From Saprospiraceae bacterium (GTDB lineage Bacteria > Bacteroidota > Bacteroidia > Chitinophagales > Saprospiraceae), in the NCBI GenBank assembly GCA_019694295.1, contig JAIBCG010000023.1, positions 1 through 44,358 of the forward strand: a stretch of DNA of 44,358 bases, written 5' to 3'. The notes under the pieces were generated by a model. It was not told the DNA's origin. It saw only the letters and a program-made list of their open reading frames with translations, and did no database searches. Shown here in pieces: positions 36,194-44,037 of this stretch. The translations under genes were made by a program, and so were the position numbers. Each line of letters begins with the position of its first letter. The first letter of the stretch is position 1.

Positions 36194-38388
36194 ATGATAA
36201 CAAAACAACAATTAGGCAATTTCTTATGGGGTATGGCAGACATACTCTACGGTAAAGTAGAAGACTACAAATCATATATTTTGACCTTACTTTTTTACAA
36301 ACGCCTTTCAGACAACTACCCTTGGGAAGAAGAACAATCGGTTCGAGAACTAAAGGAAACCTATGGTTCTGTAAATGAAAAGCAGAAAGAAAAGGCAATA
36401 AAAAATGCCCATAAATTTCAAATCCCTGAAGGTCAGTTTTGGAAAGACATCGCAAAAGCTCCACTGGATGAGAAAAACGAAAAAATAGATATTGCACTAA
36501 ATGCCATTGCAGATGCTAACCCTAAATTAAAAGGGATTATCAATACCGTAAATGGAATGAAGCAGCTCCAGACGGCTCAGGTGGCAAACGATTAGATCCA
36601 AAAATTTTACAGGAATTAATCAACCACCTCGACCCAATGGACCTTTCAAATGCCAATGTTCCATTGGACATTTTGGGTCACGCCTATGAGTATCTTATCA
36701 AACGCTTTGCGGATGAAAATAAAGGTGGCACAGTAGCAGGGCAATTTTATACTCCACCAGAAGTGGTAGAATTAATGGTGCGTTACATTTCGCCTACCAA
36801 TGGTATGCGAGTATATGACCCTACCTGCGGTTCAGGTGGTTTTTTAATCAAAGCAGCCGATTATGTTAAAGAAACCCAAGGCGAGCTAAAAGGCTTACGC
36901 CTTTATGGCCAAGAAACCATTTGGAATACGTGGGCTATTGCCACTATGAACTTGCTTTTACACGGTTTAGAAGGTGAAATAAAACAAGGAGACACTATTC
37001 AAAATCCAAAATTTAAAAATCCTGATGATACCATTGAAACCTTTGATGTGGTATTAGCCAATTTCCCTTTCTCAGTAGAAAACTGGGCAGGAAACGGTAC
37101 GCCTAAAAAGGATAAAAAAGGTAAGGCAGTCCTCAATAATGATGGCTCTCCAAAATACGATTATCCAGCAAAAGACACTTATGTTGACCCATACAACCGT
37201 TTGATTTATGGTACACCCAATTTCACCAATGGGGATTTTGCTTTTTTACAGCACATCATTGCTTCTTTAGAACCCAATGGAATGGCAGGCGTAGTTTGCC
37301 CAAATGGTGTTTTGTTTAAAGGGCAACCCGAAAAAACAGAAGAAGAAGATGGTCAGAACCGTAAAGCAGATGATGATTATTTAATCCGTAGAGGATTTAT
37401 TGAAGGAATTGGCGAAGACAAAAAGAACATTATTGATGCTATTGTAGCCTTGCCCGAAAATGTATTTTATGGCAATACAATTCCTGGTGCAATTGTTTTT
37501 TTCAATAAGAACAAACCCGAAGAACGAAAAGACAAAATTCTAATGGTTTGGGGTGCAAAAGAAGGTTGGTACAAGTCTGAGCCAGACCAAAATGTACTTC
37601 GTCCACAAGATGTAATGAGGTTATTGGTACAGCTTTTAAGCTATGGAGATATTGAAAAAGCCAAAGCCATTATCCCATCACAAGAGCAGCGTTTGTTTGC
37701 TTTGGTAGATGATAATTTAGATTTTAAATTATTAGAAATTGAAGAGAAATACCACGAAGAAGAAGCCGAATTATCAGGTTTACACTCTGATTTACTGCAA
37801 GCAAATGCCTATTTTGAAGCAGAAAATGCAAGTGCAGAACTTAAACTAATAGACGGTACAATAGTAACAGCCACCATACACAAAGGTAAGTTTGAGTTAG
37901 CACTAAAAGACCAACGCAAAACAACCATTCCTGTAAACGAAAAGGGAGAAATAGAAATCCTTTTTGGAGCAGAACAACTATTTAAACTCAAACTAAAAGC
38001 AGGCAACAAAGCATCTATTACCAAGGGCGATATTACGAAACGTGAAAACCGCATTGCCAAGTTAGAAGAACTCTTACTAAAAAAAGAAACGGAAATAGCA
38101 GATGCCAAAGCCGAAGCAGAACGAGAAAAAATAGCCATACAAGTAGTGAGCCAAGAAATGTTAGGTGTATTTGCAGACCCAGTTTTACGCAGAAAGTATT
38201 TTGCAATGGTAGATATGGACGAGCTGATAGAAAACGAATTTAACCTAAACCTACCACGCTATATTGATACCGTAGAACCCGAAAGAGAAATACCCATAGC
38301 AGAAGCCAAAGAAGAACTAACCTCCGCTTTAGAGGCCGAAAAAGAAGCCGAAAAGGAGTTAAACAATTTACTTGAAATTTTGAACTAA
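36194..38388 (+). pseudogene. hsdM: Type I methyltransferase subunit HsdM, frameshifted
   Basis: HsdM is the N6-adenine methyltransferase subunit. The first frame (36194-36595) encodes the N-terminal HsdM domain and ends INTVNGMKQLQTAQVAND. Shifting frame at about 36550 restores WNEAAPDGSGGKRLDP and the rest (to 38388). One missing base (expected GTAGAATGG, seen GTAAATGG) explains it, and the total of 2195 nt is one short of 732 codons. The methylase part has GQFYTPPEVVELM, DPTCGSGGFLI and ANFPFS (a variant of NPPF). The C-terminus is coiled-coil. Reinitiation at ATG 36637 could make a fragment lacking the N-terminal domain. Confidence 0.88.
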
Positions 38389-39713
38389 TGGAAATGAAAG
38401 AAACTAAAATAGGCTTTTGTATTCCTGAATTTGACCCGATTAGGTTGAAAGATTTCTTGTCAAGTAATGATGATGGGAAATGGGGTTCTGACCATAATGG
38501 GGAAAATGATATTGCGGTAGTTAGGAGTACTAATTTCAATGATACAGGTTATTTAGACCTTTCTGATGTGGCTTTACGTACACTTTCGGATGATGACTAC
38601 CAAAAAACGAAGCTATTAGAAAATGATATTGTTATTGAACGTTCTGGTGGTAGTGCCAATCAACCTGTTGGCAGGGTAAGTTTCGTAACCAAGGAAATTG
38701 AAGATACAGGTTTCGGATTTTCTAATTTCATTCAGCGAATTAGAGTTTCAGATGAATACAATGCCAAATACGTTTTCTACTGTTTGTATCACTTGCATAG
38801 TGCTGGTATTACCCAAACAATGCAAACTCAAACCAATGGTATTAGGAATTTAGAATACAGATATTACCTTAATCAAAAACTGCCTAAGCCATCACCAATT
38901 GAACAAACCCAAATAGCCAACTTCCTCAGTGCAGTTGACAAAACCATACAAGCCACTAAAAACAGCATAGCCAAATTAGAGAAGCTCAAAACTTCGCTAA
39001 TGCAAAACCTGCTTACAGGCAAAATGAAACCCGATGGCTCTTGGCGTAAAGAGGATGAGTTTTGGATAGATGATAAATTTGGTAAAGTGCCTAAGGGGTG
39101 GAAAATAAGCTATTTAAAAGACGTTCAAGACATAAATAAGGAATCCCTACCTGCATCAACAGACCCAAACTACACATTAAAATACATCACTATTGAGGCT
39201 GTATTTACAGATAGAATAGATTTTGATAAAGTGCCTGAATATAAATTCTCTGAAGCACCGGGGAGAGCAAGAAGAATCATAAAAAAGGGAGATTTTATTG
39301 TTTCAACAGTTAGACCAAATCTTAAAGGTTTTGCAAGACTTCAAGAAGAAGGAGATAACTGGATATGTTCCACTGGGTTTGCAACCGTTAGTCCAATTGA
39401 AAAACAAGTCAGTAATTTCTATTTTTTTCAAATATTAAGTTTCATCGGAGAAAAACAGTTTGCAAGTTTTATTTCTGGTTCAAATTATCCAGCGGTTACA
39501 GATAGAGATTTTAAGCAGTTAAAGGTATATGAAGCCCCATTTGAGGAGCAAATCGAAATTGCCAATAAAATCGAAAGTGTTGTAACAATTATTAATAAAA
39601 AGCAGAATTCAATTAATCAGTTAGATAAGTTGAAAAAATCCCTAATGCAAAACCTATTAACGGGCAAAGTAAGAATACCCCAAGAAGCATTAAAAAATGA
39701 AAGCAATGGATAA
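38388..39713 (+). CDS. hsdS: Type I specificity subunit HsdS
   Basis: HsdS selects the DNA target for the methylation/restriction complex. The 441-residue protein has two target-recognition domains, at about 15-180 and 230-400. Each is followed by a conserved helix ending KLKTSLMQNLLTGK or KLKKSLMQNLLTGK, giving the usual two-fold repeat. EQTQIANFLSAVDKTI and EQIEIANKIESVVTII also match. The ATG overlaps the hsdM stop by 1 nt. The target sequence cannot be read from the protein. The duplicated helices could allow domain shuffling, although no partner hsdS is present. Confidence 0.92.
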   Translation: MEMKETKIGFCIPEFDPIRLKDFLSSNDDGKWGSDHNGENDIAVVRSTNFNDTGYLDLSDVALRTLSDDDYQKTKLLENDIVIERSGGSANQPVGRVSFVTKEIEDTGFGFSNFIQRIRVSDEYNAKYVFYCLYHLHSAGITQTMQTQTNGIRNLEYRYYLNQKLPKPSPIEQTQIANFLSAVDKTIQATKNSIAKLEKLKTSLMQNLLTGKMKPDGSWRKEDEFWIDDKFGKVPKGWKISYLKDVQDINKESLPASTDPNYTLKYITIEAVFTDRIDFDKVPEYKFSEAPGRARRIIKKGDFIVSTVRPNLKGFARLQEEGDNWICSTGFATVSPIEKQVSNFYFFQILSFIGEKQFASFISGSNYPAVTDRDFKQLKVYEAPFEEQIEIANKIESVVTIINKKQNSINQLDKLKKSLMQNLLTGKVRIPQEALKNESNG

Positions 39714-39742
39714 AGAAAAAGCTATAGCAGTAGCACAAAATG

Positions 39743-39767
39743 AAACCGTGACAAGTCTTCACGGTTT
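39743..39767 (+). repeat. 9-bp inverted repeat after hsdS
   Basis: AAACCGTGA (39743-39751) and TCACGGTTT (39759-39767) form a perfect stem with a 7-base loop, 30 bases past the hsdS stop. No T-run follows, so it may be an mRNA stabiliser rather than a terminator. Confidence 0.5.
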
Positions 39768-39849
39768 GAAAATGCTTCCAATATACTCACAAAGTAACCT
39801 TTTTGTCGTTTCATCTTTGTTAATAAGTTGCACAAAATTGTTAAGAAAG

Positions 39850-39881
39850 TTGGCGGTATGTTTTAAAGTTTTGTATCTTTG
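39850..39881 (+). promoter_or_regulatory. Promoter for the RNA leader and Abi_2 gene
   Basis: TTG (39850-39852), a 21-base spacer and TATCTTTG (39874-39881) make a full Bacteroidota promoter. Start would be near 39887, about 140 nt above the Abi gene. This is one of the best promoters in the window. Confidence 0.65.
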
Positions 39882-39886
39882 CATCG

Positions 39887-40010
39887 GATTTGCCGTTAAA
39901 GCAATTTCGAAAAGCTGTATTTCAGCCTACATTTCAGACAGTAATTTAACTAAAGATAATACACCCTCCAGGCTTACTTCGGTAGCACACTTGGGGGGTC
40001 TTCTCTTTTA
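39887..40010 (+). ncRNA. Candidate small RNA upstream of the Abi_2 gene
   Basis: From the predicted start at about 39887, roughly 120 nt ends in a strong hairpin and a U-rich tract. A small hairpin GCTG-TATTT-CAGC (39914-39926) and a direct repeat ATTTCAG (39919-39925, 39931-39937) lie inside. The order promoter, RNA, terminator, HEPN gene resembles type III toxin-antitoxin loci, where the RNA is the antitoxin. AbiF-family toxins have been reported with such RNAs (from memory). The boundaries and function are inferred. A 110-codon frame across the region shows no protein-like features. Confidence 0.45.
39963..40010 (+). terminator. UUCG-capped hairpin with U-rich tail
   Basis: ACCCTCCAG (39963-39971) pairs with TTGGGGGGT (39991-39999), including two G-U pairs. 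An inner stem GCT(T)AC/GTAGC is capped by TTCG in the very stable C(UUCG)G form. TCTTCTCTTTT follows, about 16 bases before the Abi ATG. It fits an imperfect intrinsic terminator or attenuator. Confidence 0.65.
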
Positions 40011-40025
40011 TAACCCTTTGGCATT

Positions 40026-40973
40026 ATGAGTAAAAGAATTTACCATAAACCGCCAAAGTCTTTCGCAGACCAACTGCAACAGCTCAAAGACCGCAACCTC
40101 ACAGTTGAAGATGATGCTAAGGCATTGTCTATATTAGCCAATATTAGTTATTACAGGCTAAGTGCTTACTTCCTGCCTTATCAATCAAAAAAAGACTGGT
40201 TTGATGATGGCACTACATTCAAACAAATTATTGATACCTATTCCTTTGATAGAGAATTAAGACTTTTAGTTTTTGATTGTATAGAACGCATAGAAGTAGC
40301 CATAAGAACACAGTTTATTTATGGTATGGCTACGCACTATAATGACAGCCACTGGCAAGATAAAAAGCATTATTTCATATCACCTTATTATAACAGCATA
40401 GGAAATTTAGTAGATCCTTATAACGATTTTCAAAATATTATTTCAAGAGCTAAAACAGCAAGAACTCCAGAAGTATTTATTCAACACTATATGGATGAAT
40501 ACTATAAACCGTCCAATCCACCATCTTGGATGTGCTTTGAGTTATTAACTATTGGAGAGATGTCACACCTTTACAGAGGTTTAAGAAACAAAGAAGATAA
40601 AAAAAGAATCGCAAAACCTTTTGATGTTCACTTCAATGTTTTTCTTTCTTGGCTTCACTCGCTTACTTATGTTAGGAATATTTGTGCCCATCATTCTCGC
40701 TTTTGGAACAAAGATTTAGCTGTAGAACCTTCTATTTTACAAAAGCCTGTTGGCCATTGGGTAGGAGCTTCTTACAATAACAATAAACGAGTATTTTATT
40801 TTCTATGCATTTTAAAATACTTGCTAACACGAGTAAACCCGAATAACAGTTTAAAAGAAAAGTTAGTAGCACTATTCAATAAATACCCGAATGTTCCTAT
40901 AAAATATATAGGCATACCTTCAGATGGAAAGGGTAATCTTTTAGACTGGCAAAATGAACCTTTATGGAAATAA
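40026..40973 (+). CDS. Abi_2 (AbiD/AbiF-like) HEPN abortive-infection protein
   Basis: This 315-residue protein belongs to the Abi_2 family, HEPN-fold proteins that act as RNases to halt growth during phage infection. The N-terminal ISYYRLSAYFLPY and FDRELRLLVFDCIERIEVAIR blocks are diagnostic. The HEPN active-site motif Rx4-6H is seen as RNICAH (Arg217-His222) within YVRNICAHHSRFWN. It is intact and lies between hsdS and hsdR. Only 34 nt separate it from hsdR, so they are probably cotranscribed. Its own promoter and RNA leader lie upstream. A single-chain RNase toxin held by the leader RNA is the favoured hypothesis. Confidence 0.88.
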   Translation: MSKRIYHKPPKSFADQLQQLKDRNLTVEDDAKALSILANISYYRLSAYFLPYQSKKDWFDDGTTFKQIIDTYSFDRELRLLVFDCIERIEVAIRTQFIYGMATHYNDSHWQDKKHYFISPYYNSIGNLVDPYNDFQNIISRAKTARTPEVFIQHYMDEYYKPSNPPSWMCFELLTIGEMSHLYRGLRNKEDKKRIAKPFDVHFNVFLSWLHSLTYVRNICAHHSRFWNKDLAVEPSILQKPVGHWVGASYNNNKRVFYFLCILKYLLTRVNPNNSLKEKLVALFNKYPNVPIKYIGIPSDGKGNLLDWQNEPLWK

Positions 40974-41007: not shown

Positions 41008-44000
41008 ATGGCAGGCTTTTCCGAAATACCAGCAGTAGAAGTTCCAATGTCTAAATGGATAAGTGATTTAGGTTGGAGCTATAAAGACAACGAAGATTTA
41101 AAACGCTTCAAACGTCCATTGGCAAACCCAATCATTGATGAAATTCTACTTGATAAAATTGCTTCTATCAATAGTATTTCAAAAGAAGATGCCAAAAGAG
41201 TATTACCTATTCTCACACAGTACTTTAATAATCCAAACAGCTTAGAAGCGAATGAATTGTTTTTGGAGCGAGTGGTAAAAGGCGTAAATATCAAAATTGG
41301 AGAAGAAGATAAAACCATCCGTATAATAGATTTTCGCAACCCTTGGAACAATGATTTTGTGGTCACTCGTCAATATTGGGTACAAGGATTTGAATTGGTA
41401 AAACCAGACATTGCATTACTTATTAATGGCATACCGCTTATTTGTGTGGAAGCCAAACAAAGAGCCAAATCCAATTCCAACTATTTTAAAGGCATACAAG
41501 ATTTAAGCCTTTATGAAAGTAAAGTACCCAAGCTATTCATTAGTAACTTTTTCGGTATAGCTGCCAATGGCAAATTTTCTAAATATGGCGTTTTAGGAGC
41601 TTCCGCCTCTTACTATTATGAATGGAAAGATTTAAGCGTAGAATCACCCGAGAGAAATCCAGCCATAAAGAGCAAAGCCATAGGCACTGTACTCAATGAA
41701 GATACAGGATTATTGGATATGGACATACCAGCCTATAAGCAAATGAGAAGGTCGGTTTGTAGCTTACTCCAACCTGAACGTATTTTGGATATGCTTCAAA
41801 ACTTTATGGTATTTGAGCGTTCGCCAGAAGCAGGTTTGATTAAAAAAATTGCAAGATACCAACAGTTTAGAGCAGCCAATAAAATTGTAAGAAGGGCAGA
41901 AAAAGGAGATTACAAACAAGGTGTTATTTGGCATACACAAGGTTCGGGTAAATCGCTTACTATATTGTTTACAGCCTATAAGTTGAGACATCATAAAGAT
42001 TTAGGCGACCCAATGGTTTATATCATTGTAGATAGAAAAGATTTAAGAGAACAAATAGGCGATACATTTGAAGAATCTGATTTTCCAAACACCTTCAAAC
42101 CAAACAATGCAGGTCAGTTAAAGTATAAAATCAAAGCTCAAACCAGTGAGGTAATTATTACCAACATTCAGAAGTTTAGAGAATTAGACGGAGTAACAGA
42201 CCCACGAGAAAATGTATTTGTATTAATTGATGAAGCCCACAGAACCCAATACGGAGATTTTCATTCAGAGCTAAAAGCATCTTTGCCTAATGCTGGTAGA
42301 TATGCGTTTACAGGAACACCCATACCAAAAACAATCAAAGAGTTTGGTAAAATTAGCACAACCGAAGTAGAAAAATACTTGGATAGATATAGCATACAAG
42401 ATGCTATTGATGACGGTGCAACAAGAGAAATCATTTACACTTACGGTCCTACGGATTTACAAGTTGATAAAGAAACGCTAAAGAAAGGTTGGGATGAACT
42501 AACAGATAGTTTAGAAGAAGATGAAAAGCAAGAAGTTCAACGCAGAGTAAGACCTTGGAAAACCATCATTAAAAAACCTGAAAGAATAGCAGAAATAGCC
42601 AAAGACATAGCTAAAGATTTCAGAGAAAAAGTAGAACCAAATGGTTTTAAGGCACAAGTAGTCGGTATAGATAAAGAAGCGTGTGTATTGTATTATAATG
42701 AACTACTCAATAATGGTTTCGACCCATCAGAAATTCAAGTGGTATTTTCAAAAACAGCCAAAGAAAGTGAAGAAAGGTATAATCTTTTTAAAGACCATTA
42801 TTTGAATGAGGGTGATTTAAAGAAAATCATCAAAAGATTTAAAAAGAGAATCACACCCGAAGAACAAAGAAACGGCAACAACCTAAAAATACTAATCGTT
42901 TGCAATATGCTTTTAACAGGTTTTGATGCACCCATTGAGCAAACAATGTATTTAGACAGTCCACTAAAAGAGCATACGCTATTGCAAGCAATAGCTCGTA
43001 CCAATAGACCTTATGATGATAAAGTTTCTGGCGTAACCAAAAACAACGGTAGAATTGTAGATTATATAGGCATAGACCTTAATCAAGCATTAAGTTACGA
43101 CCCAACAGATATTGGCACATTTAAAGATGAAGAAGCCTTATTTAAAGACTTTCCAGAAGCAATTAATAAGGCAATGAGTCATTTTGATGATATTACATTA
43201 CAAGATACTTATGAGTGTTCTATTGCCATTGTAAGACGCTTATCCGAATTAGACCATACAGAGTTTGAAAAAGAATTTAGAGCAGTATATCAACTGTATG
43301 AGGCTATTTCACCAAGTGCTTTATTAGTACCGTACAGAGACCAATACAGATGGCTTATAGCTATTTATCAGGTTTATTTATCAGAGTACAAACGACTTGA
43401 TTTTGATGCAGAATTTTATGCAGCAAAAACAAGGCAGTTACTCAATGAAGCAACAGAGATTTTAGGGTTTAAAGGACATTTACCCGAAGTAAAAATCGAT
43501 AGTAGTTACATTGATGTTTTAAATGGTTCAAAGCTAAGTCCAGACGATAAAGCGGAGAAAATCATACGAGATATTGAAACCGTAATACGCCAAAGCGAAA
43601 TAGCCAACCCAGTTTATGTAGATTTCCTTAAACGATTAGAGGAAATCATTAAGCAGAAGCGTAATAAGTCAAAGAAAATAGAAGATACGCTAAATGAGTT
43701 AGAGCAGTTGTTCACAGAAGTAGAAGAAACAGATAGCCTTCCTCAAAAAATGGGCTTTGCAGATATGGGAGAGTTTTATTTCTATCAAGAAATGAAAAAC
43801 AAGTTTGGTGAAACTTTAGACGAAGAAACAGCTAAGGCATTGGCAATGAAGTTGGGCAATGTAATTAGAGAAAAAAGATATGTAGGTTGGGCAGATAGCG
43901 AGAGAGAAAAAAAATCAATACTCAATCATATAGAGTTTTGGTTGTGTTCAGACGAATTTGATTCCCTTGCTTTATGTGATGATGATGAACTTGCACAGCA

Positions 44001-44037
44001 ATTTTTAGATCATATGGTAAACCAGTATAAGCTATAA
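41008..44037 (+). CDS. hsdR: Type I restriction subunit HsdR
   Basis: HsdR translocates DNA and cuts it when joined to HsdM and HsdS. The nuclease domain has PD at 133-134 and the ExK motif Glu148-Ala-Lys150 (ICVEAK). The superfamily 2 motor has the P-loop HTQGSGKSLT (GSGKS at 312-316), LIDEAHRTQYG, TGTPIPKT and AIARTNRPYDD. The 1009-residue length is normal and no lesion was seen. Because HsdR works only in the complex, the hsdM frameshift should leave it idle. Its stop overlaps the start of the next gene by 1 nt. Confidence 0.95.
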   Translation: MAGFSEIPAVEVPMSKWISDLGWSYKDNEDLKRFKRPLANPIIDEILLDKIASINSISKEDAKRVLPILTQYFNNPNSLEANELFLERVVKGVNIKIGEEDKTIRIIDFRNPWNNDFVVTRQYWVQGFELVKPDIALLINGIPLICVEAKQRAKSNSNYFKGIQDLSLYESKVPKLFISNFFGIAANGKFSKYGVLGASASYYYEWKDLSVESPERNPAIKSKAIGTVLNEDTGLLDMDIPAYKQMRRSVCSLLQPERILDMLQNFMVFERSPEAGLIKKIARYQQFRAANKIVRRAEKGDYKQGVIWHTQGSGKSLTILFTAYKLRHHKDLGDPMVYIIVDRKDLREQIGDTFEESDFPNTFKPNNAGQLKYKIKAQTSEVIITNIQKFRELDGVTDPRENVFVLIDEAHRTQYGDFHSELKASLPNAGRYAFTGTPIPKTIKEFGKISTTEVEKYLDRYSIQDAIDDGATREIIYTYGPTDLQVDKETLKKGWDELTDSLEEDEKQEVQRRVRPWKTIIKKPERIAEIAKDIAKDFREKVEPNGFKAQVVGIDKEACVLYYNELLNNGFDPSEIQVVFSKTAKESEERYNLFKDHYLNEGDLKKIIKRFKKRITPEEQRNGNNLKILIVCNMLLTGFDAPIEQTMYLDSPLKEHTLLQAIARTNRPYDDKVSGVTKNNGRIVDYIGIDLNQALSYDPTDIGTFKDEEALFKDFPEAINKAMSHFDDITLQDTYECSIAIVRRLSELDHTEFEKEFRAVYQLYEAISPSALLVPYRDQYRWLIAIYQVYLSEYKRLDFDAEFYAAKTRQLLNEATEILGFKGHLPEVKIDSSYIDVLNGSKLSPDDKAEKIIRDIETVIRQSEIANPVYVDFLKRLEEIIKQKRNKSKKIEDTLNELEQLFTEVEETDSLPQKMGFADMGEFYFYQEMKNKFGETLDEETAKALAMKLGNVIREKRYVGWADSEREKKSILNHIEFWLCSDEFDSLALCDDDELAQQFLDHMVNQYKL

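Follow-up and report, generated by a model that had tools for sequence, protein, structure and literature searches.

A conserved abiF-type hairpin as the predicted RNA antitoxin of an AbiF-family HEPN protein in a type I restriction operon of a Saprospiraceae bacterium

The leader in front of the abi_2 gene of Saprospiraceae bacterium GCA_019694295.1 is very probably an abiF-type RNA, whose 37-nt hairpin is predicted to serve as the RNA antitoxin of the adjacent AbiF-family HEPN protein, in a type III manner. The stretch of DNA analysed, hereafter the window, covers positions 1-44,358 (44,358 nt) of contig JAIBCG010000023.1. The module is a variant of an AbiF/abiF-RNA kind already described (PMC12373285). 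Its new aspects are a loop variant that marks one clade, the location of hsdR 0-34 nt behind abi_2, and copies of the hairpin without toxin in phages. An RNA antitoxin for AbiF is the best-supported mechanism, and phage decoys are the boldest lead.

Results

The window encodes an AbiF-family protein behind a non-coding leader

According to Pfam and PADLOC, HsdM_N, hsdM, hsdS, the leader, abi_2 and hsdR follow each other on the + strand. The abi_2 gene (40026..40973, +) encodes a 315-aa HEPN protein with no internal stop and, as the first-pass annotation had stated, is intact and carries the RNICAH motif. The protein belongs to the AbiF family. It matches PF07751 (Abi_2) with 190.4 bits against a curated cut-off of 25.6 and is called AbiD by PADLOC with 251.9 bits; a search of NCBIfam with this protein gave no match. 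The PDB entry 8vz6 is found by phmmer at an E value of 1.7e-50, with the HEPN motif kept in the alignment, and it is also the sole Foldseek match in the PDB at E ≤0.001 for the AlphaFold2 model of the protein (pLDDT 89.6), with an E value of 2e-20, TM scores of 0.85/0.90 and 33% identity. The RNICAH sequence, an RNxxxH HEPN RNase motif, is located at 40674-40691. Its residues R217, N218 and H222 are invariant in 17 aligned proteins, a set that leaves out the frameshifted L015 and the longer protein of L011.

The promoter, the leader of about 120 nt, the UUCG-capped GC hairpin and the U-rich tail that had been noticed at first pass are all present in the sequence. The predicted promoter (39850..39881, +) is composed of TTG at 39850-39852, a 21-nt spacer and TATCTTTG at 39874-39881, and is of the Bacteroidota type. 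The + strand of the whole window contains 36 copies of TAnnTTTG; read by eye, this box precedes the hairpin in 14 of the 15 clade leaders (the window and L002-L015), the exception being L006, which has TACATTTA instead. Transcription is expected to start near 39888, and the predicted leader RNA of ~120 nt (39888..40010, +) is delimited by the promoter box and the U-rich tail, both of its ends being predictions. The non-coding stretch ahead of abi_2 runs to 40025. In the gap between hsdS and the leader, a perfect 9-bp inverted repeat, AAACCGTGA/TCACGGTTT (39743-39767), looks like a terminator on the minus strand.

The first half of the leader (39888..39945, +) corresponds to the position of a first, abiF-like hairpin in several relatives, namely L004, L005, L010, L012 and L015, where the leader start folds in this way. 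Folding of the 15 leaders resolved no first hairpin in that of the window: its z score is -0.76, the best of the 15 being L011 (-3.27), L014 (-1.93), L005 (-1.79) and L004 (-1.62), while four are above 0. The ~75 nt ahead of the GC hairpin are poorly conserved even within the window's own clade, and the likely antitoxin core is the hairpin at 39963-39999 rather than these ~75 nt. An antitoxin made of tandem repeats is typical of type III systems of the ToxI-like kind; such repeats are absent here, since a repeat search around the leader gave short two-copy repeats only. A plasmid search with the leader as query returned zero matches.

The hairpin in front of abi_2 is conserved in relatives and corresponds to abiF RNA

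The hairpin (39963..39999, +; 37 nt) comprises an outer stem (39963-39969 / 39993-39999) and an inner GC/GC (39972-39973 / 39985-39986), both made of conserved pairs, a UUCG-capped variant apical part, UUACUUCGGUA, and the 3' bulge ACACUU. The following U-rich tail (40000..40010, +), CTTCTCTTTTA in DNA and CUUCUCUUUUA in RNA, is the predicted leaky terminator end; it is present in all 15 aligned clade rows and is broken by a C in the window. A simple terminator scan of the window did not list the hairpin at 39963-39999. When the leader of the window is folded alone, its z score is -1.30 and 21 of 200 shuffles are equally stable, so that the hairpin of the window taken by itself is not clearly beyond chance. 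It is the relatives that decide in favour of a real structure, with a hairpin in 15 of 15 loci, a promoter box in 14 of 15 and a covarying stem.

These relatives were obtained by scanning genome contigs with the Abi_2 protein, which yielded 19 loci, among them L002-L015 (14 loci) at 68-90% identity. In each of the 15 loci formed by the window and L002-L015, the hairpin lies immediately ahead of the gene. In the clade alignment of 15 gap-free hairpins, nine pairs form in every sequence (100% of cells paired). Two-sided changes affect 3 of these 9 pairs, a value matched by 79 of 500 shuffles, and they fill 11 cells, a value reached by 0 of 500. Conserved structure in homologous leaders, a check that had been set beforehand, was thus found.

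A broader alignment holds 69 matches from 67 loci and spans the clade, other Bacteroidota loci and virus copies. Here 99.7% of paired cells hold, two-sided changes occur in 8 of 9 pairs and occupy 102 cells, which 0 of 500 shuffles reach, and slid partners give 43-53%. Since these matches were picked and aligned by a covariance model, which favours structure, the 99.7% rests on chosen matches, whereas the 100% for the 15 clade loci is free of such selection. The input to this search included a single virus locus for each distinct motif, 41 of 80 in all (L066, with an outer stem of 2 pairs, was left out), and 13 of 30 loci of the order, all previously matched at E up to 1 and making up part of the matches at that threshold. 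L030 and L049 remained unmatched, and the matches on the minus strand of L025 and at L015:12039 are probably false. Pairing and covariation in the 15-row and 69-match alignments rule out a chance hairpin.

In the leader slot of L006, L007, L008 and L013 (4 of the 13 loci searched), of which L008 is from Flavobacterium fontis DSM 25660, RF03085 scores above its gathering threshold; a separate Rfam search of L015-L020 gave RF03085 in 0 of 6 loci. For L006, the RF03085 alignment matches pair for pair, including the outer stem, the inner stem and the 3' bulge. Since RF03085 recognises the equivalent hairpin in relatives, the supposed terminator corresponds to the abiF RNA itself. The window gave no Rfam match at gathering (37 bits for RF03085), and relaxing the threshold to E 10 added only three snoRNA matches, all well below their cut-offs. 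The hairpin of the window therefore shares with abiF RNA the outer stem, the inner GC stem, the 3' bulge and the slot before abi_2, and lacks the gathering score and the consensus apical loop (CUCUCAACGAU). The order proposed at first pass for a type III locus, with promoter, RNA, terminator-like hairpin and toxin gene in succession, is found here, promoter and terminator being recognised by sequence alone. This proposal holds as regards an RNA leader before an AbiF-family HEPN gene, but the hairpin is the likely antitoxin core and not a separate terminator behind the antitoxin.

Outside the clade, Bacteroidota Abi_2 leaders also display the succession of promoter box, hairpin and gene. At E ≤0.01, the covariance model matched 10 of 35 loci, all 10 immediately ahead of the gene, L109 and L110 being training sequences; at E ≤1, 19 of 35 were matched ahead of the gene and two more on the opposite strand. 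In 396 genomes of the order, the model gave 11 matches. Since only 5 of these 11 adjoin an Abi_2 gene, the hairpin is not exclusively linked to the toxin; of the six matches without detected Abi_2, G158:C22 precedes a weak Abi_2-like start and that of G046 resembles a plain terminator. Two further loci deserve mention. L141, from bacterial genome G182, has a promoter box and a tandem abiF leader, with Abi_2 unmatched within the 3 kb examined, and at L015:5995-6941 Abi_2 is split by a frameshift over two overlapping frames, with the abiF hairpin retained.

A loop variant coincides with one protein clade

Two versions of the apical part occur among the 15 clade loci. Nine carry GCCUCUCnnnGAUGC, like the RF03085 consensus; the window, L002, L003, L004, L011 and L014 carry GCUUACUnnGGUAGC, in which pairing can continue up to a loop of four bases. 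In the protein tree, from which the frameshifted Abi_2 of L015 was excluded, a single change separates the 6 variant from the 8 canonical loop rows, with a support of 95/95; the loop variant coincides with one protein clade. Between 5 variant-loop and 8 canonical-loop proteins, the only fixed residue differences are K11, R141 and K189. With the replaced loop, RNA-protein binding might differ from that of the RF03085 type. Elsewhere in the order, the loop diverges further, and just one of 20 other Abi_2 leaders is recognised by Rfam, so an altered loop is not unique to the clade of the window. In IMG/VR, the variant loop pattern occurs in 0 virus contigs versus 88 for the canonical pattern. Since the variant is the less common form in bacteria too (2 of the 11 model matches in the 396 genomes, one being the window), its absence from IMG/VR may reflect rarity.

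The module recurs in front of hsdR

The module is surrounded by hsdM, hsdS and hsdR on the same strand, that is, by a type I restriction-modification system. Two open frames make up hsdM (36194..38388, +), with HsdM_N at 36194-36595 and N6_Mtase at 36637-38388; the separation of the hsdM_N frame from the methylase-domain frame is either a natural split or a break. The upstream neighbour of the module is hsdS (38388..39713, +; PF01420), and hsdR (41008..44037, +) begins 34 nt past the abi_2 stop. Ahead of the restriction operon, between 29021 and 36000, mnmE comes first, and behind it lie genes for a tyrosine integrase, HTH_17 proteins and a DUF3987 protein, which suggests that the module is probably carried by an integrative element.

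Since no TAnnTTTG box is present on the + strand between 39882 and 41008, hsdR probably needs transcripts that pass the hairpin. It is therefore plausible that the same hairpin acts as a shared attenuator of abi_2 and hsdR; alternatively, hsdR could be served by a promoter of another consensus located within abi_2.

In 6 of the 15 clade loci (the window, L004, L005, L008, L010 and L012), hsdR directly follows abi_2. It comes after one intervening gene in L007 and in L011, where the gene is HsdR-like without an HSDR_N match, and L009 keeps a 20-residue hsdR remnant. With the HsdR of the window as query, tblastn found no match in L002, L003, L006, L013, L014 and L015, the downstream search covering only ~1-2 kb past the gene in L002 and L014; L014 has an MmeI-like gene downstream of abi_2. 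The distance from the abi_2 stop to the first hsdR ATG is 34 nt in the window, 25 in L004, 3 in L005, L008 and L010, 2 in L012, 0 in L117 (G088) and 1 in L131 (G106). This spacing of 0-34 nt, with the same order and strand, is thus observed in 8 loci and with three unrelated HsdR families; pairwise HsdR identity is 22-29% among the window, L004, L011 and the EcoR124-type group. The AbiF proteins of L117 and L131 are 37-41% identical to that of the window, and the first ~500 residues of their EcoR124-type HsdR are 66-89% identical to those of L005, L007, L008, L010 and L012.

The 396 genomes sampled in the order include 39 with Abi_2 at E 1e-20 or better. After removal of G168, G180 and G381, whose matches were partial, neighbours were counted at 39 Abi_2 places in 36 genomes. 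An HsdR N-terminus lies ≤2 kb downstream on the same strand at 5 of these 39 places (G000, G088, G230, G340 and G106) and ~3.5 kb past Abi_2 in G210. The 33 other places have no hsdR so placed, with a weak match at 1.1 kb on the other strand in G277 and one at 6.7 kb in G272. The chance expectation is ~0.02 places, a rough value from ~95 matches, 36 genomes and ~4.7 Mb that ignores defence-gene clustering. Collectively, these data show that the lodging of the module in restriction operons is recurrent, and the loci with adjacent hsdR in relatives and in the order sample rule out that it is peculiar to the source genome. In G230 (L142:1501-1566), the stretch between abi_2 and hsdR holds another abiF hairpin, which has a promoter-like box of its own.

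The first-pass suggestion that a version inside a restriction operon could be new needs amending: besides this recurrence, the kind of module has been shown experimentally in C. difficile (PMC12373285) and solved as 8vz6. We found no literature report of abi_2-hsdR pairs with abiF RNA.

Phages carry the hairpin without the toxin gene

Of the 88 IMG/VR matches to the canonical loop pattern, 80 were fetched (L021-L100), and Abi_2 was found at E 0.01 in 0 of these 80 records. A Bacteroidota-type loop pattern gave 30 further virus contigs (L154-L183), several with the motif behind a TAnnTTTG box, of which 28 are without Abi_2; all virus records combined, Abi_2 is missing in 108 of 110. Since L156 and L159 do carry Abi_2, the search was able to detect the gene. 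The absence is weak evidence by itself, because no virus record counts as at least 90% complete; 68 of the 80 records extend at least 1 kb past the motif, into the region that would hold the start of the gene in a normal module. The stem is maintained in these copies, as 40 of 42 distinct motifs, representing 79 of the 80 loci (L084 was too near a contig end), have six or more pairs in their outer stem, compared with 9% of shuffles. The Rfam gathering score is reached in 3 of the 12 virus loci that were run out of the 80. A phage search with a single virus hairpin gave zero matches.

By their flanking DNA, the virus contigs fall into 21 groups, and in 12 of the 21 representatives a same-strand open frame terminates 15-85 nt ahead of the motif. 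In several groups, neighbouring genes have matches to phage families, for example head, tail and single-strand binding proteins; among those scanned, 8 of 20 have any family match and 12 of 20 none. At L041:2590-2720, in one of a group of 5 virus contigs, a promoter box precedes two tandem abiF-like hairpins without Abi_2, a layout that is also that of many relatives of the window.

Among named phages, abiF RNA scores above gathering in Aeromonas phages PZL-Ah8 and vB_AhaP_PT2, Salicola phage CGphi29 and Synechococcus phage S-SRM01 (L150:3007-3043, L151:3000-3036, L152:2994-3030 and L153:3001-3037); the RNA is unannotated there, and no Abi_2 was found across the whole records of the four phages. 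In the two Aeromonas phages, the RNA is flanked by the connector and capsid assembly genes and preceded by ACTATAGGGA, which resembles a T7-type promoter.

These copies without toxin suggest that the hairpin functions in trans, and it is possible that phage abiF RNAs are decoys against AbiF. One case of a cyanophage abiF RNA has been reported, and the accessible part of that paper contains no decoy reading (PMC9964418); nor did we find a literature report of phage abiF RNAs as decoys.

Discussion

A predicted mechanism for the module

In C. difficile, according to PMC12373285, AbiF is a toxic Abi_2 protein, and a short upstream RNA, which starts 168 nt ahead of the gene, results from premature termination; this RNA binds and neutralises AbiF in cis and in trans, and its stem is required. 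Given the homology of both AbiF and the hairpin, we propose a similar mechanism here. Transcription would begin near 39888 and end, in most cases, at the hairpin and the U-tail, yielding a short RNA, while the minority that pass the hairpin would allow AbiF to be made. The HEPN active site around RNICAH would be assembled from two AbiF subunits, and binding of the RNA to this dimer would keep it from cleaving RNA non-specifically, which is what has been reported for the relatives from C. difficile and Prevotellaceae. If the RNA were lost, for instance upon phage shut-off of host transcription, the RNase would be set free and growth would stop. Since hsdR starts 34 nt past abi_2 with no recognisable promoter box between them, the hairpin may attenuate hsdR too, in which case restriction would lag behind methylation.

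Could the leader be something other than an RNA antitoxin? A 110-aa frame (39697-40029) overlaps the abi_2 start by 4 nt, and its last 150 nt are open in L002 and L004 too, as if a small protein gene overlapped abi_2. Among 12 loci checked, however, 9, including L003, have at least one stop in this stretch, which rules out a coding leader as a candidate; in addition, the frame has no family in Pfam or NCBIfam and conservation tracks base pairs, making this explanation extremely improbable. The hairpin could also do no more than limit abi_2 and hsdR expression as an attenuator or terminator, with an RNA that does not bind the protein. Its GC stem and U-rich tail would suit such a role, as would the motif position 15-85 nt past a frame end in 12 of 21 virus representatives, and PMC12373285 also reports a cis effect via premature termination. 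Against it, the inner GC/GC, the 3' bulge and the loop classes are conserved beyond the needs of a terminator, the fold is shared with an RNA that binds and neutralises C. difficile AbiF, and phages retain the hairpin without the gene, with promoter-like sequence ahead of it in two Aeromonas phages. We therefore regard a pure attenuator as unlikely and favour the RNA antitoxin.

The proximity of hsdR raises a separate question. PrrC/EcoprrI is the model for a guard-type toxin held by a restriction enzyme, and AbiF might similarly guard its enzyme: HsdR or the whole enzyme would silence AbiF, phage anti-restriction would free it, and the RNA would be secondary. The 0-34 nt adjacency in three HsdR families agrees with this idea, as does the finding that the distant AbiF of L117 and L131 (37-41% identity) precede hsdR closely resembling those of the clade (66-89% over the first ~500 residues), but 34 of the 39 Abi_2 places in the order sample have no hsdR ≤2 kb downstream on the same strand, and we consider a guard function rather doubtful. 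Plain defence-island clustering without regulatory meaning is a serious rival to the shared attenuator, with a likelihood only somewhat short of even. Defence genes cluster, and defence functions are enriched beside abiF genes (PMC12373285); mere clustering accounts less readily for an order, strand and 0-34 nt spacing that are constant in 8 loci with three HsdR families. A more daring combination, to which we give little credence, is that one hairpin locks AbiF and hsdR, which are released together, that phage decoys disarm AbiF, and that the clade of the window has re-keyed the loop together with the toxin, thus escaping canonical decoys.

Should the abi_2-hsdR arrangement prove functional, it would tie an RNA-held RNase to restriction control. 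The abiF RNAs without toxin in Aeromonas, Salicola and Synechococcus phages make phage RNA counter-defence against AbiF directly testable. Furthermore, AbiF with its RNA has been proposed as an ancestor of Cas13, according to two reports (PMC12737573, PMC12165695), so the loop-replaced RNAs tied to one protein clade offer test pieces for antitoxin-RNA recognition.

Comparison with known systems

The RF03085 family and the hairpin of the window have in common the length of 37 nt, the outer stem, the inner GC-containing stem, the 3' bulge and, in the nearest relatives, the slot before abi_2. They differ in the loop, CUCUCAACGAU in the family versus UUACUUCGGUA in the window, which the Rfam model does not recognise. 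On the protein side, the full-length fold is common to the window protein and PbAbiF of Prevotellaceae, a dimer with its ncRNA in PDB 8vz6 (TM 0.85/0.90); the study behind this entry, by Zilberzwige-Tal et al., reportedly describes AbiF bound to RNA.

ToxIN differs from the module in that ToxI is derived from repeats and adopts a pseudoknot fold, and ToxN is not known to be a HEPN protein. The module shares with ToxIN the opposition of an RNA antitoxin to an RNase toxin, and the phage-borne ToxI mimics (pseudo-ToxI) described in PMC3475682 provide a precedent for the phage copies.

The closest described system is RCd22 of the C. difficile prophage phi027, which, according to PMC12373285, has the same succession of promoter, structured short abiF-motif RNA, terminator-like end and Abi_2 with RNxCAH. 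Its RNA is mostly made as a short transcript, as is predicted here. RCd22 has two abiF motifs and a separate terminator, whereas the window has one clear hairpin, predicted to do both jobs. Moreover, RCd22 sits in a prophage lysis module, while the module of the window, with its UUCG-capped loop variant, sits in a type I restriction operon.
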